Source: Physcia stellaris
Lineage: Eukaryota; Ascomycota; Lecanoromycetes; Caliciales; Physciaceae
Assembly: GCA_018902385.1 (NCBI GenBank)
Contig: JABSSW010000045.1
Location: 1-64,000, forward strand
Direction: 5' to 3'
Length of the DNA: 64,000 nucleotides
The position numbers and the translations under genes were made by a program. The notes beneath the pieces are model-generated. The model ran no database searches. It was given only the letters and a program-made list of their open reading frames with translations, and was not told the origin of the DNA. Shown here in pieces: positions 1 through 64,000 of the stretch; the first letter of the stretch is position 1; each line of letters begins with the position of its first letter.

Positions 1-73
1 ATTTTCAAGATTTCGTTGTTGTTAAATGTCTGTTCGCGAAAAAACTCTCGACAAAGTTTTTAAAAGAATTTTC

Positions 74-234
74 TGTTACGATAAAACGTATTGAATAACA
101 ATGTGATAAATAAAATGATTAAATTGTTATTATCTAAAAAACAAAATGCGAAATATGAATCAAATCGTCAAAACGTTAATTCGTTTTTGTCAAAATATTT
201 TGATTTCAATTTTATGTACAGATTTATCGTAACA
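74..234. repeat. Left LTR of outer element
   Basis: This 161-bp terminal repeat is paired with 8306–8466. It is bounded by the 12-bp inverted repeat TGTTACGATAAA / TTTATCGTAACA and preceded by the TTTTC target duplication. Confidence 0.85.
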
Positions 235-377
235 AATGTCATCAACGAAAAAAAATTATAACGTTTTCGTTGTGTCGCGTGACGAAAACATGCGAATCGT
301 TTTTCGAAAAATCTATTAATAATACATAAAAAAAATAAAAAAAACGATTTGTTTTTTCGTCAACAAATCAAAAATTT

Positions 378-677
378 TCAAATCATGATATTGCGTTCGA
401 ACGTTCGAAATTTCTCAAAATCATGACGAAATTTTTGACAGAAATGAATTGTTCGTAAATGTCGATGCAAATCATTATTCGATTCAAACGTATCGTTGCA
501 AATGCGACAAACAAACGAAAAAATCAAAATGTCGAACGCGAATTTAAAAATAAATAAATGAATCGAACAATCAAAAATGACGAACATTTTGTATGACAAA
601 ATGTTCGATATTTTTGAAATAAATGTAACAAATAAACGACGAGAAAAAATCGATGTTTTGTACAATAAAACGATCAA
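378..677 (-). pseudogene. Broken coding relic of outer element with one C2H2 finger
   Basis: This minus-strand frame has a clear C-x2-C-x12-H-x4-H finger at about 440–515. It lies in the outer element to the left of the nested insertion, on the same strand as the relic at 7,041–7,640. No other domain is visible. Confidence 0.45.
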
Positions 678-743
678 TTTTTTAAATACGTTTTTGACAA
701 ATAATGTGAATTTGACGCGATTCGATTTCGCAAACGTATGTTG

Positions 744-957
744 TGTGACGAACGTGCATCGATTTCAATATTTGAAATCAACATTTGCAATCATTAAAAT
801 TAACAATTTTATTTTATCACATCGAATGACAAAATCGAAATTCGTTTATGATCAAATTTTTTACATATGTTTTGTCAAATTTTCATGTAATTGTTTTTCA
901 TTTCGATATTTTCGTGTAATTATGTAATAATATCATATTTTTGCATGACATTTCACA
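744..957. repeat. Left LTR of inner element
   Basis: This 214-bp terminal repeat is paired with 6466–6679. It starts TGTGACG and ends TTTCACA, and is preceded by the TGTTG target duplication. Confidence 0.85.
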
Positions 958-2833
958 TTATATCGAATTTTTTTTTTTCATGTTCGTTTATGATACGCGA
1001 ACATTCAAATAAACAAAACTTTTTGTTTCAAAATTCAAAAATTGATAATGAAACATAATAGATTCGTATCGTTTGATCATTAAAAAAACAACAAAACGTA
1101 ACAGACTGATTGTGAATGCGAAAAAACGAAACATAATAGATTCGTTTGTCGATTCAATTGAATATTTTGACAAACGAATTTCAACGATAATCGATGTCAC
1201 GAAAATAATTTCTTCGAGCGTCGATTCAAATTCGTTTCATTTCGACTGACAAAGTGTTTTTACGATGATTCGATTAAGTCATCAAATCAAATCTAAATTA
1301 TCAAAAAAACATCATATCAAAATATTCGAACAGTGATTAAATCAGAAATTCAATTATCAAATCAAATTTTTGATCAACAATATCTCGAATCATTTATTTT
1401 TTTCGAGAATTTTTCAGAATTTTATTTATTTTACTAGCAAATCGATCGTTTTTTTCTATTCATTCAATCGATTCGATATTTCGTTAAAAATCAAATTTTG
1501 AATCATCATATTAATGAAATTTCTTTTCATTACATCGACATTGAAAATCATTCAATTTGTTCGAAATTTGATTCGAAAATTCATTTATCGACTTTTGCGA
1601 ATCGATTTTTCTTTTCAGTTTCAATGATAGTCTCGATAATCGAATTCGGAAATCAATCAATTTTTCGACAAAATTTTCGATATTGACAATTTCATATCAA
1701 TATTTGAATCATTTTCAATTTTTGAAAATTTTCAAAAATTATATCTGTTTGTTTTACAATTCAGTCTGATTTTTCTAATATCAATGATGAAATTAATAAC
1801 ATTTCGAATTTATATTTTTCATATTTTCGTTCAATATTTCGACAAACATTCGATATCGATATCATTCGTCTTTTTCGAAAACATTGCGAAATTTTATCTG
1901 TTTCACTAGCAAAAAATTTTGCTTTTTTCGTTTCAAAGTTGAACGCAATAACATCTCGTCAAAAACGACAAAAATTTTCTAACGAAACTCTATATCAATA
2001 TTCGACATTGAATTCATTCATTGTGTCTGAAAATTAGTTCAAATTTGCATCTGTTTGTTTAACAAATTGATTTTTTTTTTCGATTTTGACGATGACTTCA
2101 ATATTCGATGAATTTGAAATTTTCAATTCAGCATTTTTTTACAATTGATTTGAAAATGAATTGTTCAATCAAATTGCAAATTTTTTTCATCATTTTCAAC
2201 AATGTTTATATTTTTATTGCGAATCAGAACTGTTCGATTTGTTAATAATTATTTTTATTGATTTTGTCGATACATGATTCGACGATTAATCGAAATTCAT
2301 TTCATTACGCGATTTCGACATAGTTTTTACGAAGACATTTTCTTTTAGCGAGTTTGTAACGATACAATCAATTTTCATTTCATCAAAATCGTTTATTTAA
2401 TGTAAAATGTCATGCAATAATATGAATAACAACAAGAATTTGAAATTTCATCTGAGATTTTGAGAAAAATTGTTAAAAAAACAAAACGTAATGTCGTCAA
2501 AAACGCAAAACGAATTAAATTCAAAACATTGAAAACAGAACAAATTGCAAAATCAACATCGATTGTTCAAAATATCGATATTTTCGATTCAATTTTCAAA
2601 TGTGAAAATCGACGATTCAGCGATTTCGCAAAGTTTTTGCAATATTTTCAACATTGTCAACATTTATATCGAGAATCAAATTTGCTTATTTTGTTATTTA
2701 TTTGTTTCGATGACATTGCGTTCGATATTTAATACAATAAACAAAACGTCATGACGTCAACATCGTTGAACGAATAAATAAAAATTTTACGAATCGAATT
2801 CGTCATGTTTACAAAATCAATTTCAACAATGAT

Positions 2834-5131
2834 TTGCATGCGTTGCGATCAAAATTTCAACATCAAAAAAACGTTTCGCGAACACGTGCGCGAACAACAC
2901 GCAAAAAGTCGATCAAAAATTCTTGTCTCGATATCAATACAGTTAAATTGATGTGCAAAAACGACGAAAAATTAACAATCAATGATTCGTTCTTTGCGTC
3001 TGTTTTGCAAAAATTTGATATTTTTATTGCAACATCAAAACAAAAATTCGAATTTGTCATAATTTTCGAAACAGTCATTTCATCGAAAAATTTTCATTTT
3101 TCATTTAATGCGTCAAAAATTGTATCAAAATCGATAGAAAACACGTCAATGCAATGTTCATTTATTTCGTCGAAATCATCATTTTTTCAAACGTTCGATT
3201 CAGAACATCAAAAAAATTTTGTTCAGAAATTTCTAAAATCTTGTTCGTTTTTCACAAGTTTTACATTCGAATCAGTATACGAAACGTCAAAAAAATCAAC
3301 AGTCACAAATATTCGAACAATTTGCAAATTTTGCGAACAGAATTTCAACTTTAACAAAAAATTATACGAGCATATTCGCAATCATGAAATTTTGAAATTC
3401 GCAAAAAAATTTTATTTCTCGATCAATGCAATCAATTTAATATGCGAAATCGAAAAAAAATCATTCGTCGCGCACGTATCATTTGTTTCATTTGCGAAAT
3501 TTCAAAATTCGATGTTCGAATTTGCAACAATATTCAAATCAATCATTTCACTAAAACGCTCGAATTTTTCACTTTTTACATCGAAAATTGAATCAAAATC
3601 AGCGAAAAATTCAACGACGTGTCGACATTGCAAACAGACGTTCAAGATTCAAAAATTGTTTCGCAAACACAAACGTGAACAATATGCAAAAAAATTTGTC
3701 ATCAATTCGTCTTTTTCGTTTCAAGCATTCAATGCAATATGCGAATCAGAAAAAAAATCAACAACAAAAAATGTGACGATTTTGTTTGTTTCGCAAAAAT
3801 TGCAAATTTTTATTCAAAATCAAAAAATCGATGTTCAGAAATATTCAATCGACAATTCATTTTTTTCGATCAATATTGTCAAATCAACATGCGAAACAGT
3901 GAAAATATCAACAATTGCATGTTCGTTTTCGTCGCAAAAATCATCAACATTTTTTGCAATTTCAAGAAATTTTGTAACAAATACGAAAATATTTTTGCAA
4001 CTCGTCTCATTCAAAAATTCGCATTTTTCGATTACGATATTCAAAATCACATCAAAAAACACGAAAATTACATCAAATTTGTTTGCAAAAAATGCAAAAT
4101 CGATCGCGAATATTCGAATTCAAATTGTTCACATTCGCGTAAAAATAAAAATTGAACGAACAATTTTTCAGATATTAACATTCGAATTTGCATCAAAATC
4201 GATGAAAAAATTTTCGATTCAACAAATCGTTTGCGTTTGAATTTGCAAACGTTGCAAACAAAATTTCAATTTCAACAACAAATTTCACGAACATATTCGC
4301 GAACATCATGTTCGAAAATCTGTCAAAATTTGAATTTTCGAATTTCAACATCAAAATTCACGTACAAAATCAAGAAAAAATCAACAATCATTTGCTCGTT
4401 TGTTTCGTTTGTTTCGTCGATTTTTTCTGCAACATTTACATTGATATTTGAATCAATATCATCAAAATGTTCGCATTTTTCTATTGCGATATTCAACATT
4501 ACATCAAAGCAAACAGAAATTGCATTCATGTTAATCACACGAAAATTCACATCAAAACGAATCAAAATTGTTGCATTCAATTGTTCGTTTACATTTTCGA
4601 TTTCATTTTTTCGAACATTCGTATCAAAACATCAGAAATTTTATCTCATCATCGATGATTTGATTCACATGTTTCGTGAAAAATTTAAATCATTTGATTT
4701 ACATTCGCATCAAAAACGTCGTTTTTTTTCACGAAATTCTGACATTTTTTATCAATCACGAATCATCGTTTATTTTTTGTTTACAATCAATCAGAAAACA
4801 TCGATTAATCAAAATCTGAAAAATTCAAAATCGAAAAATTTTCAGCAATTTACGTTTGCGAAAACGATTCGTTCTGTTTTGTCTGAAAAATCGATCATTT
4901 TATCATACAAAAAGTCAAACATTTTTTATATTTCGTTGCAATCAAGATTTTCATTTTTGCAATCAAAATTTTCATTCGCATGATTTCGATTTACGTTTTC
5001 GTCGTTTTTTCGATTTTCGTTTTCAAATTTTCACGTTTGTTGCATTTGTTTCGATCATTTCAGTTTTCGCAATGATTTATTCGATTATTCACGTTCTAAT
5101 CAACGATATTTTTCGATTCGTCGATCGATAA
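2834..5131 (+). pseudogene. Broken coding region of inner element with C2H2 zinc-finger patterns
   Basis: Several plus-strand frames in this stretch show the classical finger spacing C-x2-C-x12-H-x3/4-H: about 2,833–2,905, 3,316–3,387, 3,619–3,690 (degenerate) and 4,243–4,314. Each has an aromatic residue three to four positions after the second Cys, as in real C2H2 fingers. The longest open stretch (2,834–4,240, 468 codons) has no Pro, Gly or Trp at all, as expected where CC and GG have been erased. The fingers lie in different frames, so the region is broken. The origin could be a DNA-binding or nucleic-acid-chaperone protein of the element. No host function is claimed. Confidence 0.55.
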
Positions 5132-6465
5132 AAAAGTGAAAAAAATGATTAATCGTTTCGAGACGAAATTGAAAAAAAACGAAAAATAAATTGTTCGAAT
5201 ATTCAGTCACGAAACATTTTCAAAAAAAATTTATTGCATACACGTTTTATTGAATGAATCGTACATATCGATTATCGCATACGTTCAAATATCGATGCGT
5301 TAATCGTTGTTACGTTGATTTTATTAATGTGATGAAATTGTTTGTTTCATGATATAATCGATTTGAAATTTTCGAAAATTTTCAATTATTTACTTATTGT
5401 CGTCGAAATTATTCGCGAAAGATTGTATAAATTGATCATTTTTCAAAAAATTCATTACGTTGATGTTTTGTTGAATGCAATGTACACATCAACTTTCGCA
5501 TATGCAGAAATATCAATACGTTAATCGTTGTTACGATGATTTTATTAACATGATCAAATTGTTCGTTTCATCGTATATTCGATTTGATGTTGCAAGAATT
5601 CAACGTTCGCATTAATGATTTCATTATATTCAAAAGTTCGAATTTTCGATTTTTTACATTTTAAATTACGCATTAAATTTTGAAAAAACAAATTTTCAGT
5701 CGTTTGCATATTTCATCATTTACGTCATCGTTTATATTTTTTACGAATTGATTGCAAATCAAATTTTTTATTAATTGCAATAATTTCGATTTCAGATATT
5801 TCGCATAAATTTGCATTCGTCATCAAAATACAAATAATTTTATTCACATCGAAAATTTTAATTAGAAATTCAGAACGCGAAACAATTTTCTCGTTTCGAT
5901 CAATTTGTTTCGAAATTTTCGAATTTCAAATATTTTCAAATGATTTATTATATCATTTATTCGCAAATATCATGATTCATGTCTCGCAATCAAATTTCGA
6001 ACAAAAATTCGAAAACGATTTTTCATATTTTTTTGTGTATTTGTATTAATTATTAATGAACATCGCATGCATGTTCGAAAATTTGCAAAAAAAAACGTTT
6101 ATTCATTATACAAAATGACGCGATATTTTTATTTGTTTCAATTGTTTTAATAATTTTTTCACATTTCGATTCAAACGCAAACTTTTTGAAAAATTTTCAC
6201 GTTTTGAAAGAACGATCGTTTTATCATATTAAACGTCAAATATTTTTGACATTCAACGATTTTCGCAAATACAAAATCAAATAATTTGCAAAAATCGTTT
6301 TCATCGTTTTCATTTCAAATTTTTGTACGTTTTCACGATTGTCACGTTCGTTATGAATTCAACGCATTTACGAACAAATCATCGAAATTACATATTTTGT
6401 CGATCGACAAAAAAAAAAAATCAATTGATCGTTTCGAAACGAAAATGAAAAAAAACGAAAAATAA
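4830..6465 (+). repeat. Degenerate internal duplications near the 3' end of the inner element
   Basis: About 4,830–5,192 resembles about 6,140–6,465. Both end in a GTCGATCGA-containing segment followed by a purine-rich tail, and the second copy abuts the right LTR. Between them, about 5,241–5,360 resembles about 5,461–5,580 at a spacing of roughly 220 bp; both contain TTAATCGTTGTTACG. Similarity was judged by eye and is imperfect. Confidence 0.6.
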
Positions 6466-6679
6466 TGTAACGAACGTGTATCGATTTCAACATTTGAAAT
6501 CAACATTTGCAATCATTAAAATTAACATTTTTATTTTATCACATCGAATGACAGAGTCGAAATTCGTTTATGATCAAATTTTTTACATATGTTTTGTCAA
6601 ATTTTCATGTAATTGCTTTTCATTTCGATATTTTCGTGTAATTATGTAATAGTATCATATTTCTGCATGACATCTCACA
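6466..6679. repeat. Right LTR of inner element
   Basis: This is the partner of 744–957 at a constant offset of 5,722 bases, with no gaps. I counted 10 differences, 9 of them transitions. This copy keeps more CpT and ApG dinucleotides than the left one. It is followed by TGTTG. Confidence 0.85.
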
Positions 6680-7040
6680 TGTTGTTGAAAATTTTTCGAA
6701 TTTGAATTTTTCGAGTTTTGATTAATCGAAATGTTTTGATCGATTGCGAATTTGAAATAAAACGTAATTTTGATTTGATAAAAAAAATATTTCGAAAATG
6801 CGCATCGTTTTTGATGTGATGTCTGATATAAAAAAATTCGATTTTTTTGTGTTTTTCATCGAACATTTCAAACAAATTTTCGATCGTGAAATAGAATTTT
6901 TGATGTTAAGATTTTGATTTTTGCGAATCAAACGAACAAATATTTGATGCAATTTTCGCGATACGTGATATTCGTTTCGATGCAAAAATTGAAAAACGTA
7001 AAAACTTTGATGCAATGATTGAACGTGAAATTATTTCGAT

Positions 7041-7640
7041 TCAAAATATTTGTTTTCTTGATGTTGCAAATGAAATCAAAAAAAATAAAATATCGATGAT
7101 CGATTTTGATTGATTAATAAATGATATGAACATCAATATTAATTTATTCAATGTAAAAATCGCAAAAAATGTTGATTTTGCGATCGATACAATAAATGTA
7201 CGTTTTGCGATCATTGTTTTTAATGTAAAAACAAATGTTGATATAACGATTTCGTTTGATATAAATTTCGCGAATTTGTTTAATGAAAATATTGAAATTT
7301 CGTTTGCAAACTTTTCGAATTTCTTTTGATGATGATTTTGAATATGTTGATGAAATTTTGTATTGTTAAAAAACTTCGCGAAACAACGTTTGCATACAAA
7401 AATCGTCAAACGAGTTTTTTTTTGTTTTTTTGCAATACGAATTTGTTCGATTTCTTGTTGTAACAAAAATTTTGCACGTTTTTTGATCAGACAAATTTTT
7501 TTTGCAACGCGACGTTTTTCGACGAAACGTGTTTGTTTGATTTGTTGTTTTGCACGTTTTTTTTGATGTTGCAATTTTGTCAAATGAATTTGTTTTTTTT
7601 GTTTTCGTTTTTGTTCACGTTTTGAAATGTACGTTATCAT
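7041..7640 (-). pseudogene. Broken coding relic of outer element, Lys/Arg-rich with one C2H2 finger
   Basis: This minus-strand frame is strongly basic in its first third (many K, R and Q) and then shows one C-x2-C-x12-H-x3-H finger pattern at about 7,315–7,398. It lies inside the outer element, outside the inner insertion. The basic stretch could be a nuclear-localisation or coiled segment, but RIP-like composition bias also raises Lys and Gln. It is treated as a fossil of unknown function. Confidence 0.45.
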
Positions 7641-8305
7641 TTGAAAACAATCTGAACATACATCGATATATATTTTTCAATTGAATTCGCGTTGTGTGAT
7701 CATTTGTCAACGAACACAAAAAATTTACATTTTTGACATTTAACAACTCGACGATTTTTTATATGCGTATTTTTTGTTATGTACAGTTGAACGTTTTTCA
7801 TTTGCGATATCGTAAAATATTTGTACGATCAATGATCGATCAAAAAAATGATAATGTATTTCGATGTTGAAAATATAATGTGAAAATTGCGAAAACTCGT
7901 GAATAAATGTTTTGATGTATTTGAGTTACGAAAAATTCGTTGATGAATAAATATGTTGACGTCAAATAATTAAATTTTGAAAAATTCGTAAATAAATATG
8001 TTGATTGAGTGTTTGATACGAATCAACGCGAAAAATTCGTGACAAAATATTTTGATATCGAATGATTAAATTCTTTTGATGCAATAAATGTTAATTGTTG
8101 CAAAACAATTGAAATTGTTATCGTCAAATTTGATTGAATGCGTTTATTGTTTGTTTGAACTGAATATTTCACGAAAATTGCAACAATTATCGTTTGTTGA
8201 ATTAAATGTTTGACGAGAATTAAATATTGTATTGCAATTGAATATTGTTCATGCTAATAAAACAACGATAAAAATTGTTAATCGTTACTCGATGATGTTA
8301 TCATT

Positions 8306-8466
8306 TGTTACGATAAAACGTATTGAATAATAATGTAATGAATAAAATGATTGAATTGTTATTATTTAAAAAACAAAATGCGAAATATGAATCAAATCGT
8401 CAAAACGTTAATTCATTCTTGACAAAATATTCTGATTTCAATTTTATGTGCAAATTTATCGTAACA
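8306..8466. repeat. Right LTR of outer element
   Basis: This is the partner of 74–234, aligned without gaps at a constant offset of 8,232 bases. I counted 11 differences, 10 of them transitions. It is followed by TTTTC. Confidence 0.85.
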
Positions 8467-9290
8467 TTTTCGAACACATTTGTGTCGTTATAAATACAAT
8501 TGTTATAAAAAAATAAATGTAAAAAAAATGTAAAAAAATTTTGATCGTTAAATATTAAATATTTGAATCAATTATATACAATTAACATGAAAATTATTAA
8601 CGTTTTATAATATTTGAATAATGATTCGACAATTAAATCGTCAAATTTGTATATAAATTGACATTTATCGTTTCATAAAATACTTTTTATAAAAAACATT
8701 TCTTAAAATCGTTTAACACGAATGATTGATCGAAAAACTATTTGATCAATGAAATGACTGTCGATTTTTTTTTTATCAATTGAAAATATTGAAATAAATC
8801 GACGTTCGAATGAGAAAATACGTCAATTTTTTTTAAATCAATTATCAAAATAATTTTTGAATGAAAAAATCGTATAATTGTTGCACATTTTGCATTTCAA
8901 TCAACAATCACATATGATTTTTAATTATTTAAATGAAATTATAAAGCAAAATAAACGTATTTCAACGTTGCAAAAATGACAAAAATCGATTCATTATCGC
9001 AATAGTTTTGAAAATTCGAAAATTACGTCGTTGTTAAATTTGTGTTTGCTGAAATGTGTTGTTCAATTTTTCGCAATATTTGCAACGTTTCAATGCGATT
9101 TCGATCATAACTTAATGCGCACTCGATGAATTTTCGATATTATTGATTATTTGAATAAAATTCACTTTAAGTTTCAATATGAGATTTTGATTGTAAGTTT
9201 TATTTATTGAATGCAAATGTTATTAAGATGCGAAATTCATGAAATCGCAAAGCAATGACGAGATGTCGAGCTTCGCAATTTTATCAGATG

Positions 9291-10077
9291 CAGTTCTTAC
9301 TCTGAAGTCGTTTCAGAGAATTTTTTTAAAAAAAATTCCGGGCCTGCTTGTATCTCATAAATAATTCAATCATCTCATCAAGCTTAACATTCGTCATCGG
9401 CTAACAACATCGAACTTTTCTTGCTGGAGGTTAAAGTCATATTCAGTATCCTCAGTACAATTTCCTGTCGAATACACCGTCTCCCCAGTCTGGCTGCGAC
9501 AGCGCTATATGGCTCTCATATCTGGTGTTTCATGTGCTTTATTACTGGCCAGGCTAAGTCGCACAGTCGGCGTTCAGTCCTCGATTATCTCCATTCGACG
9601 AATTCAGACAACCAGCCAGTGGCGTGATCATGGATCCCAAAACGCCTCGGTGGCTAGTGATCCAAGCAGATCCCCACCATACTGCTGGTCCTTATTGGCA
9701 GATATGACATCAGTAATTGTAGAAACTCCAATTCTCAATTTCTCCTACCAGTCAACCGGATTCTCGTCTTCTCTGACTCAATTCCAAGGAGACGGCCTTA
9801 CCTGCACTCGATATCCAGAGAAGTAAAATAGGGATAGGCAAGACCCCTCTCGTTGTTGCCTTAGTGTATGTACATTTTTAAAGACAATTGCCCCCATCTC
9901 TAGAGTGACATGCATGATAGTCTGGTTTCGGAGCGAACGATCGAATAACGTTCGCTAAATATGGTCATCCTCTGTATAACCTCTGACCGTTGACTCTCAA
10001 ATTACCACAGCTCGCGTGCTCATACTCATCTGTTGGATGATGAGCATCCATTCTGCTCGAATCTAGTAGCCCAAGCC
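9291..10077. other. Spacer at left border of gene island
   Basis: Ordinary composition begins here. Small reading frames (for example 9,509–9,826, +) show no domain I recognise and no convincing splice partners. The spacer probably contains the promoter of the gene starting near 10,078. Confidence 0.5.
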
Positions 10078-60224: not shown

Positions 60225-63200
60225 GAATTTAAGCCGAACTTTCCTTGTTAAGATAAAAGTTTTGACTCTTGGTCATATCAACGTTAATTCGATACAATAT
60301 TTGATCGCAATCTGAATTCTTTTTCGTGCAATAATTTTCGTGAAATTTTCATGAATCAACGTCAACATTTTTTGATTTTGATATTTATCGTTGTATGACA
60401 CATGCGAAAACGTCGATATATTCGTCGACGTTTTATCAAACGAACGCATGAATTAAAACGATGACGAAAATCGTTATCATACACGCAATTTTATTGAAAC
60501 ATGAACGACGTGAAAAACGAAATTTTTCGTCGTCATATGAAATTGTAATATCATTTAATTCAACATTCAATATTAACATGACGTTATCAAATTTCAAAAA
60601 AAAAAAACGCGTTTTTTTATTTTATTTTGATTTCGATATCATTGAATATCGAATTCGATATAAATCAAATTCAAAAATCGTTTTATGCATATTTTTGTAT
60701 TTATTATTTTATTTTGAAAAACAATGACAAACGATTATTTTTTTCGAACGATCATTTTTTTTCATTTCGAACGTGTATTACGATGTCATTAAACATTTAA
60801 TTCGTCGTTTCAAATTCATGTTGTTTTGACATTTTTTATTGATTTATGAACGTTTCGAATTATACGTCGAAATGATATTTGAATTGACGAATCGAAAATC
60901 AATTATATGAAATTTTATTGACGACACGTTTCGAAACTTTTGTAAATCAAAAACGAATCAAAAAATACATTTTTTCGAACACAAATGACGTCACGATTTT
61001 CATTTTCAAAAAATCGTAAATTTTGACGATATGATGTGATTTTTATTCGATTTCACGTTGAATAAACAAAACGATTGATCAATATACGAAAAATCGAACA
61101 TATTGAATGTTTTGCGAAAAATCATGATTGAACATGATACATTATTTTATTTGTATGATGATTTTGCGTACAATGATCGTTTCGAAATCATAACGTTTTT
61201 TTCGAATTCAAATTCACAACAAAAAAAATTTAATAAAATCATGTCATCGATGCGAATTGCAATTGTGTAAAACTTTTTTTTCTGAAAAATTGATTTGCAA
61301 GCATCAATTGACTAAAATTAAAATTACAATTTAACATGTTTATTATTCAAACGAATCGCTGCTTCATTAAAAGCAAAATTCGTGATTCATTATGTATTCG
61401 ACGATTCTTTATCGAAACTTTCAACGACTATCGCATATCGTTAATACATGATTTCATTGTGACTTTCACAGCTCACGAAACTAAAATCTGTGAATTTTTT
61501 TTGATTACATCACTCGACGTATATATCGAAATCTGTTCATTAAAATCTGAAATCAAGATCTGATAATCGTTTATTCGTTTCTGATTTGAATCGTTACATT
61601 ATTTTCTTTCAACGAAATCGAAATTTCATGAAATTTACATGTCTGACGTCGAAATCAACATTCACGTCGAATTGAAAAGCGTCATTTTCAAATATCATTC
61701 GTTTGATGACATTTTCAAGAAACTTGCTCTCGAAAATCGCTTCGAAAATGACGATAAAAAAAATATGAAAAAAAAAATCAAATGATCTAAAAATGTCTTA
61801 TATAGTCGAAATCATTTTCGAATTGAAATTAATTCATTTCGCAACGACGACGATGAATAAAACGATAATTGAAACATTAACAACATGTTCGATCAATGAA
61901 TAAATAAATTTTCGTTTGCTGTCGATGTCTCGTCAAAATCTGAAAAACTCAATGAGAAACAAAACAAAAGAATGCATGATCGATATAAAATGCTTTGCGA
62001 AATTTCGCAAAAATACGAAAAAAAAATTTTTTGCTTTTTGTTGACGTCTCATTAAAATTTGAAAAATTCGATGAAAAACAGAACAAAAAAATGCGCGATC
62101 TGTTAAAACAATAAAAAAATAAAAAAATAAATAAATGTCTTCAATGAAAATTTGAAAAAAACGAAAACACTTTCGCGATCATGTGTTGATTCGATGATTC
62201 GTGCAAATGCGTTTGCTGAATTCTTGTCGACAATTGATCGATGTTTAATCAAAATGCTGTGATTTGAATTGATTTGTTCTGAAACGTCGACAATTCGACG
62301 ACAACGACGATTGATACGTTAATAACAATGATTTCATTGCGATAAATATTTGACAATTTATGACTTGATAAAAAAATTCGTCAATATGATATCTGATTTC
62401 GATATTTAATATTGATTGATTCGTGACGACTTTGTTTCGTCTTCGATTTGACGACAAAATTTTTCGATTTCGATGTTGAATCATTTAACGTTTTGAATCA
62501 TATGATAATGTTAAACTGTTTGATTTATTGAATGATTTGCTTGAATTACATTGCTGAAATTTCAACATTCAATCGTGATTTCAATTTGTCAGATTCGCGA
62601 ACTTTCTAATCATTCAAACTCATTGAAAATCTTGTTCGTTTCGAATTTCAAAATCAGCAATTAACTTTGCAACAATTTTACGTATTTAACTCGTCAATGT
62701 AAACCGTACAAATCTCATAATTCTATTAAATAATGCAAATTCTATAGTCAGTTCGATTCGATAATCAATTCGATTTAAAAATTTGAACTATCGTTCAAAT
62801 CATTGAGAACGAATACGCCTTTTTGACGAGTTGTAACAGAAATAGCTGAGTAATTGACTTTTCTTCTTTTTTGAACTGTTTTTTTCTGTAGAAAAACGAA
62901 AACATGTCATACATGATTGCAACAACAAAACAAATACTGTATTATTCGAACAATACGATATGAACATCAACGAGCTCATTCAACATCGATGTAATCATTA
63001 TCAAAACATCGACAATATGATCGTTGTTTGATCACGAAATATTTGATGATCACAAGTCGCATTAACAACATTATAATCAGCAATCTGATATTCAATTAAT
63101 GAATTTGCAATAGCGATCTTGTGATAACGTTTAGACGATAACAAATTGCTTGACGAAATCTTGATTCACAATACGTGTGACGATTTTGATTCAATTGATA

Positions 63201-64000
63201 AAATTACATCGATTCTGACGTATTGATCACAATACGATTTTTGAAAAACGATCAACGTTTTCTAGCAAGAACACGTTCAGGCGAAAAACATTGACTAATT
63301 CGCATTCATTTTGATGAATATTGCTGCGTGTTTCAGGCGAAATCGAAATCAATTCTGAAAAACGAAAATTTTATCGCAATATGATTTTCGACTGAATCAA
63401 AATCTTGTTCGTCGATTTCATGATCTGATGCAAAATTTTCAGAAATTGCACTTTCTGAAACATGCATCGAGTTTTGTTGAATAAACGAAAATGTTTCGCA
63501 TCGAACATTGTTTTTGTTTTTAGATTTTGTCGTAATGTTTATATCTTTGCGCATGTCAGCGAACATATGACGTTTTTATTCGAATACGTCAACAGATATT
63601 TTGTTTTTAATAAACGAGCGTGTCAATTGAACATCGTGATTATGTCATTCAAACATATCGTGATTTTATTGTTTGAACATGTCAACAGACTTATCGTGTT
63701 TCGAAACATGTATTCGATTTCGTTTAATGTGTAAATCATGATGTTAATTTTGAAATTCGAACGATGTGAAATCAAAAATGTATAACAGAAATAATGTTAT
63801 GACTAAATCAATAATTGCAAAATTAATTATTTTTCAAATTTCTGTTCATATAATTCGTCAATCTGTTCAATCGTACACACATTTCGAAATTTATTCGAAA
63901 GTATGAGTTTGTTGAATTCAATCGAAAATTTGATGTTGACGTGATCAGATTGATCGTTTTCGATTTATCGAATTTCGATGATCGAACGACTTCGTATATT
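60225..64000. other. AT-rich mutated compartment (right), no intact gene
   Basis: The base composition is that of the left block, rich in TCGAA/AACGA words with C mostly before A or G. Parts, for example 62,581–62,640, still hold several CpT, so depletion is less complete than on the left. No LTR pair, target duplication, zinc-finger pattern or other domain was found. Frames present (for example 60,461–60,727 and 63,462–63,734) are short and compositionally biased. The window ends inside the block. It is probably decayed repeat sequence of unknown family. Confidence 0.8.
61924..62100. repeat. Imperfect direct repeat pair in right AT block
   Basis: 61924–61981 and 62043–62100 (58 bp each, spacing 119 bp) align without gaps with about ten differences, nearly all transitions. 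Both run from GAyGTCTC to GCrygATC-like ends. Confidence 0.6.

Follow-up and report, generated by a model that had tools for sequence, protein, structure and literature searches.

Which process removed almost every cytosine standing before a pyrimidine (CpY, that is, CpC or CpT) from the left end of a 64,000-nt stretch of Physcia stellaris DNA is the question raised by this locus. The stretch, positions 1 to 64,000 of contig JABSSW010000045.1 and referred to below as the window, belongs to a genome assembly of 44 Mb in 147 contigs. A first-pass annotation of the window had proposed that a C-to-T process directed at CpY had run nearly to completion, through a pathway of the repeat-induced point mutation (RIP) type or through a free deaminase. 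Herein, we found that the pattern is real and strong and plainly differs from RIP in its defined sense, and that its likely source is a repeat-directed, RIP-like C-to-T mutator that takes CpY in place of CpA and has affected transposons and a ribosomal DNA (rDNA) copy.

The window consisted of three parts, none with an assigned strand:

1–9337: AT-rich, CpY-depleted zone with a single GG, at 1648
9338–60271: gene island of normal composition, recognized from composition and open frames and used as the internal control
60272–64000: second CpY-depleted zone, with 4 CC/GG in 3.7 kb

Over the whole of 1–9290, the dinucleotide counts were CC 0, GG 1, CT 94, AG 100, CA 664, TG 558, CG 503, and TA 523, and the observed/expected ratios were 0.00, 0.01, 0.20, 0.24, 1.45, 1.28, 3.19, and 0.41, respectively. 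When both strands were summed, 1 CpC/GpG and 194 CpT/ApG stood beside 1222 CpA/TpG and 503 CpG. Densities per kb in 1–9290 and in the gene island (9291–60224) were 0.1 versus 108 for CpC/GpG and 21 versus 134 for CpT/ApG, while those of CpA/TpG (132 versus 141), CpG (54 versus 52), and TpA (56 versus 47) were close. CpA and CpG are thus present at gene-island density, without enrichment, and it is CpY that was lost. In 1–9240, a single CC or GG was observed, against a mean of 313 and a minimum of 258 over 1000 shuffles. The right flank (60225–64000) was similar, with a slightly weaker loss of CT (CC 4 and GG 3; observed/expected CT 0.47, AG 0.23, CA 1.19, CG 2.86, and TA 0.45), and the ratios of the gene island were ordinary (CC 0.90, GG 0.93, CT 1.08, AG 1.07, and TA 0.72). 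The CpY deficit was therefore found in both flanks with a normal island between them; neither a CpA/TpG depletion with TpA excess equal to or stronger than the CpY loss nor an equal CpY deficit in unique genic DNA, the two outcomes named beforehand as refuting, was seen.

The local counts of the first-pass annotation were reproduced. Of the 19 C in 4081–4200, 10 precede A, 8 precede G within the stretch, the last precedes G at 4201, and none precedes C or T; 3001–3060 holds 6 CpA, 1 CpG, and no CpC or CpT. Its wider statement of a near-total loss of CpY and of ApG and GpG on the opposite strand holds for CpC, which is gone, but CpT leaves a residue (94 CT and 100 AG). Likewise, the depletion it had ended at 9290 is real, but CpC is absent through 9337, the first CC/GG beyond the zone lying at 9338, and CpT is back from about 9100, over roughly 200 bases preceding 9338.

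The direction of change was read from copies of one transposon. Among 150 RVT_1 matches (the best 150 of 527 candidates), we found a copy, L044, with a normal GC content of 0.51, whose Pfam domains (RVT_1, RNase H, and integrase zinc-binding) identify a Ty3-type element. Nine relatives had GC contents of 0.23–0.29 and only 0–6 CC/GG per 2.4–3.5 kb. Seven of these nine mutated copies were aligned pairwise to L044 over about 3.3–3.4 kb each, and L051 and L056 were excluded for their shorter alignments; the family listing comprises 18 copies, 8 further ones lying outside this set, and the seven are relatives, so that they do not amount to seven independent proofs. Relative to L044, C was now T at 2958 of 3025 CpC sites (97.8%) and 2688 of 3156 CpT sites (85.2%), versus 209 of 3017 CpA sites (6.9%) and 95 of 2800 CpG sites (3.4%). 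C:G-to-T:A changes made up 5950 of the 6202 substitutions, with all remaining types at 252. The two strands were equal (CpT mutated fraction 0.857 and 0.847), and the dependence on the 3′ neighbor claimed earlier was confirmed, the 5′ base being of little weight: CpT was mutated at 82–89% after any base (413/503, 885/1012, 809/987, and 581/654 following A, C, G, and T, respectively).

In copy L061, the C-to-T changes reached 433/435 at CpC and 447/458 at CpT, with 26/441 at CpA and 0/408 at CpG. These values correspond to 5.4, 3.7, 0.06, and <0.0074 hits per site, respectively, a CpC/CpT hit rate about 500-fold or more above that of CpG and 60–90-fold above that of CpA. Across the copies, some CpA changes were common to several copies far beyond chance (one pair, for example, had 7 joint changes versus 0.9 expected). 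Given this excess of sharing, part of the CpA changes probably reflects an earlier divergence of L044 from its family.

A yardstick independent of any transposon was provided by the following unit, which was located with Rfam models:

G000:C41:41001-51000, minus strand: rDNA unit L042 with small subunit (SSU), 5.8S, and large subunit (LSU) genes, CpY-mutated

At highly conserved positions of the Rfam consensus, T stood for C at 45/51 CpC, 31/61 CpT, 1/56 CpA, and 2/49 CpG, in tallies restricted to C and T (3, 1, 3, and 0 sites, respectively, had another letter). Over all consensus letters in the same blocks, the values were 112/136, 68/110, 15/101, and 23/107. From the displayed alignment blocks, six of the eight LSU, four of the eight SSU (two of these split in two), and both of the 5.8S blocks were taken, and LSU 453–543 and 544–634 and SSU 1–89, 178–266, 440–538, and 627–715 were excluded for elided inserts or poor conservation. 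Both polarized comparisons, of the Ty3-type copies with L044 and of the rDNA relic with the Rfam consensus, bear out a C-to-T process at CpY near completion. L042 holds the sole 5.8S match listed for the assembly, and a 1-kb piece of it matched itself alone; since the sole match lies in a mutated unit without a second match, a working rDNA array appears to be absent from the assembly.

The CpY pattern also occurred on several contigs outside the window. We divided the window and 27 loci, mostly chosen as repeats and hence no random genome sample, into 500-bp segments. Among the 176 AT-rich segments (GC <0.30), 163 had no CC/GG, and none fell within the classic RIP thresholds (TpA/ApT ≥0.89 and (CpA+TpG)/(ApC+GpT) ≤1.03), the pooled values being 0.42 and 1.49, respectively. 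The 47 segments with GC 0.30–0.42 had on average 7 CC/GG and 31 CT/AG with CpA little altered, which is what copies mutated in part, or segments of mixed content, would give. The most complete stretch seen, L040 (C5:600001-610000), had 0 CC/GG and 4 CT/AG in 10 kb, and 36% of it matches other loci examined. The only new stop that a CpY change can create is TGA, from TGG, whereas a classic CpA change gives TAA and TAG stops from CAA, CAG, and TGG. In the best 150 of 527 RVT_1 candidates, we counted 250 TGA, 33 TAA, and 3 TAG stops, and 140 of the 150 had at least one stop.

Intermediate copies were seen as well: L049, L060, and L063 had GC contents of 0.37, 0.31, and 0.29 and 100, 35, and 15 CC/GG per about 3.5 kb, respectively, and are perhaps partly mutated copies.

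The left zone of the window is largely built of repeats, among them two nested long terminal repeat (LTR) elements, all without assigned strand:

69–73, partner at 8467–8471: perfect target-site duplication flanking the outer LTR element, TTTTC (5 bp)
74–234: 5′ LTR of the outer element, 161 bp, with TG...CA ends
8306–8466: 3′ LTR of the outer element
739–743, partner at 6680–6684: perfect target-site duplication flanking the inner LTR element, TGTTG (5 bp)
744–957: 5′ LTR of the inner element, 214 bp, with TG...CA ends
6466–6679: 3′ LTR of the inner element, differing by C/T from its 5′ counterpart at 9 sites (6 CpT and 3 CpA, counted only where the following base agrees)
8663–9370: third repeat, recognized by repeat search and border query

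The inner element is nested within the outer one, and its LTR had at least 44 matches in the genome, its own copy included, with the best 40 of 347 candidates scored. The border query returned 39 other copies of the third repeat among the matches listed (best 40 of 102 candidates), all ending at 9332–9370. Because these copies end there and CpC reappears at 9338, the left zone ends where the repeat ends. Between the two, 8472–8662 had no other match among the matches listed (best 40 of 274 candidates). That 8663–9290 is a unique flank reached by spreading mutation was considered and rejected, the segment being a repeat itself. For the left zone, confinement of the mutation to repeats is thus shown by the nested LTR elements, the third repeat, the border at the repeat edge, and the normal gene island.

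The LTRs also allowed the preference to be measured. In six LTR pairs, C/T differences occurred at 25 of 27 CpT, 22 of 188 CpA, and 1 of 91 CpG sites, and no CpC site remained. Among 30 LTR copies (14 on the minus strand, turned), columns with C in at least one copy had C as the majority in 30/35 cases for CpA and 16/20 for CpG, versus 0/30 for CpT and 0/1 for CpC. The first-pass annotation had presented CpA and CpG as the survivors; they are largely kept, but with 22 of 188 sites differing between paired LTRs, CpA is not wholly exempt.

Searching the genome with PF00145 revealed three cytosine methyltransferase genes (L001 on C6, L002, and L003 on C5), with E values of 2.2e-33 for L001 and 3.3e-29 for L003. 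Motif VI reads EET in L001, EQT in L003, and ENV in L002. The hallmarks of Masc1/RID are given as EQT or EET instead of ENV in motif VI and a short target recognition domain of about 80 residues, and Botrytis and Pseudogymnoascus have a RID of the EET type (PMC6709928). The putative target recognition stretch, from PGE..P to EFACLQ, spans 75 and 82 codons in L001 and L003, respectively, counted irrespective of exon joints, and the corresponding stretch of L002 is 179 codons, over a wider span starting at motif VIII. L001 and L003 share 40% identity across 174 core residues. With a methylase domain, EET or EQT in motif VI, and a short target stretch, both are predicted to be of the RID/Masc1 type. 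L002 matched PDB 9bap/9baq with an E value of about 1e-181, followed by DNMT1 at about 1e-34, and we assign it to DIM-2 by similarity; the label is ours, the PDB title being DNA (cytosine-5-)-methyltransferase. No match was found for HP1 (PF01393) here or in the control genomes, which makes this search uninformative. The RIP-type pathway of the first-pass annotation is therefore supported by the repeat link and by the presence of two RID/Masc1-type genes and one DIM-2, any of which may encode the acting enzyme.

The comparisons above establish the direction of change, the dinucleotide rule, an association with repeats where tested, and a load beyond that of ordinary ageing. The mutator would act, or would have acted, on both strands, most strongly at CpC, next at CpT, and rarely at CpG and CpA. 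In its repeat link and in striking individual copies largely independently, it resembles RIP, but the 3′ bases it selects are the complement of those of the classic process. It may be a methyltransferase of the RID/Masc1 class, encoded by L001 (EET) or L003 (EQT), with DIM-2 as the second candidate; a RID-type enzyme seems likelier than DIM-2. The enzyme set as such suggests a filamentous ascomycete. Its action may be timed to the sexual cycle, and the chemistry could be methylation-coupled deamination or direct deamination by the same enzyme. Whether this amounts to a mirror RIP, in which an enzyme of the RID lineage has switched from C before A to C before pyrimidine, possibly with two paralogues dividing the labor, we regard as an even question.

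Several points weigh against a repeat-directed mutator, or against its simplest form. Confinement to repeats is established for the left zone alone, and no partner turned up for 60272–64000, the AT block of L039, or the rDNA relic among the loci examined, which cover <1% of the genome. Surviving CpT sites were shared at 1.6–3.2 times the level of independence in the 15 pairs that exclude L061 (0.9–2.1 times in the 6 pairs that include it), so that the histories of the mutated copies are partly separate, the sharing being far from identical, but not fully separate. A strand-run test on the seven copies was negative, and surviving CpT were significantly clustered in only two of them (L062 and L061). 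Not every duplicate was mutated, because the Ty3-type copies L045 (C5) and L046 (C12), which are 95% alike, with GC contents of 0.52–0.53 and open frames of 1024 and 1151 aa, show little CpY bias: C-to-T changes numbered 35/903 at CpY and 23/890 at CpA plus CpG one way, and 44/914 and 31/896 the other way. They are recent, or were missed, or the process is now inactive. Finally, CpA changes between paired LTRs are much more frequent than transversions, of which 1222 columns held 10, and hence a weak CpA activity, or a faster decay at CpA, exists.

What other processes could leave such a pattern? Slow ageing, in which methylated CpY deaminates spontaneously without a mutator, as in methylation induced premeiotically, would yield C-to-T solely in the methylated context and limited to silenced repeats. 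CpY, however, is an asymmetric site, and maintenance methylation is not known to copy asymmetric sites; nor does ageing sit well with the 5.4 hits per CpC and 3.7 per CpT of L061 at 0.06 per CpA and 0/408 CpG, or with only 252 of 6202 substitutions of other types. The repeat link, the equal strands, the partly separate copy histories, and a load reaching 5 hits per CpC while CpG stands at 0/408 favor a directed mutator over ageing, which we consider improbable. A free cytidine deaminase of the AID/APOBEC type working on repeats would also produce dense C-to-T changes on both strands. The preference of AID/APOBEC is set by the 5′ base, yet it is the 3′ base that decides here, and this alternative, once placed beside the RIP-type pathway, has become highly improbable; the lack of an APOBEC (PF08210) match, shared by the control genomes, counts neither way. 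Classic CpA-directed RIP is ruled out by the indices and the polarized counts.

Mutation by DIM-2 instead of a RID-type enzyme, directed to heterochromatin and to CpT and CpC, draws on the L002 homologue (the 9bap/9baq match and ENV) and on a 2026 review that credits Neurospora DIM-2 with a CpT preference (PMC13297926). Here, however, CpC is mutated more than CpT, and the dim2 of Zymoseptoria drives CpA changes and scarcely methylates CpT (PMC8016269). A chromatin-guided enzyme might also be expected to spread, yet the left zone does not extend past its repeat, and we consider this explanation rather unlikely. The pattern could instead be an extreme form of the CpT-rich RIP already known: CpT comes first and CpA second in Botrytis T4 and Magnaporthe (PMC4352252), CpT is changed more and CpA relatively less in Ascochyta rabiei (PMC4835772), Neurospora Tad1 has a CpT-dominant signature (PMC2621366), alignments of RIP-capable fungi led to CpT to TpT being called dominant (PMC7882544), and the EET-type RID of L001 has its like in Botrytis and Pseudogymnoascus (PMC6709928). 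In the accessible text of these reports, however, CpA changes alongside CpT, and CpC does not come first. The CpT-labelled families of Colletotrichum truncatum have a (CpA+TpG)/(ApC+GpT) ratio of 0.08–0.12, with CpA depleted (PMC6180176), versus 1.49 here; as CpA is almost gone from them, the label may refer to the sites that could still vary. An extreme CpT-rich RIP is quite improbable.

The CpY-directed pattern is, all the same, a variant of the RIP-like kind, for which CpT-rich signatures are already known. Like RIP in Neurospora crassa and most Pezizomycotina, it consists of nearly only C:G-to-T:A changes on both strands, is linked to repeats, comes near saturation, and affects an rDNA copy in a genome with RID-type enzymes. 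Unlike it, CpY is targeted, CpA and CpG are largely spared, TpA is not raised (TA/AT 0.42), the indices are reversed, and the stops are mainly TGA rather than TAA or TAG. With the CpT-rich signatures of A. rabiei, Botrytis, Sclerotinia (PMC4352252), Magnaporthe, C. truncatum, and Anisogramma, where CpA and CpT are both affected (PMC10998396), it shares transposon C-to-T changes before T, and differs from them in that, by polarized yardsticks, CpC is changed more than CpT and CpA hardly at all, while there CpA is reported to change too; for A. rabiei, the CpT change was described as creating no stops (PMC4835772). The DIM-2-linked mutation or methylation of Neurospora and Zymoseptoria resembles it in its non-CpG context and in the presence of a homologue, but Zymoseptoria dim2 acts on CpA, and the order of CpC over CpT is not reported in the available portions of PMC13297926 and PMC8016269. 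The CpG-type mutation of transposable elements in Basidiomycota and Tuber is likewise a context-limited C-to-T change (PMC4352252), but CpG is nearly untouched here (0/408 in L061 and 95/2800 in the seven copies). In the rDNA relics of other fungi, CpA is the main target (PMC5555474, PMC7493409), and a 2025 study that screened 1,239 fungal genomes described RIP-like defenses as sharing a CpA preference (PMC12543289). This genome, with both GC-normal and mutated copies, is a clean exception to that preference. In the accessible portions of the open PMC literature on dinucleotide context and RIP enzymes, we found no loss of CpC and CpT with CpA kept, and absence from print is not claimed.

If a mirror RIP is indeed at work, it would disable elements through amino acid changes and TGG-to-TGA stops and leave long frames without Pro, Gly, and Trp. 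The common indices would be blind to such a CpY mutator, which may be widespread and uncounted. With two RID-type enzymes and DIM-2 in one genome, the basis of the dinucleotide choice in RIP could be tested by deletion and swap.

Long frames of this kind were seen in the left zone, together with finger motifs:

2741–4240, plus strand: 499-residue open frame without Pro, Gly, or Trp in the inner element, with a weak C2H2 match below the Pfam cut-off
381–764, minus strand: C2H2-like finger motif seen by eye in the LTR elements, with a Pfam C2H2 match below the cut-off
7044–7676, minus strand: C2H2-like finger motif seen by eye in the LTR elements, with only a weak DUF629 match

The Cys and His codons of the finger motifs in these three frames are no stop targets of CpY change. 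The rDNA relic is oversized, its SSU and LSU spans of 4296 and 4605 nt far exceeding the models (1831 and 3401), which indicates that inserts are present; no group I intron was matched in Rfam at E values up to 0.1. In the gene island, 9300–60224 holds 13 ordinary-looking open frames of at least 300 aa, among which, by eye, we take some to be candidates for Sec23, Cdc14, an O-GlcNAc-transferase-like protein, and a calpain-like protein.

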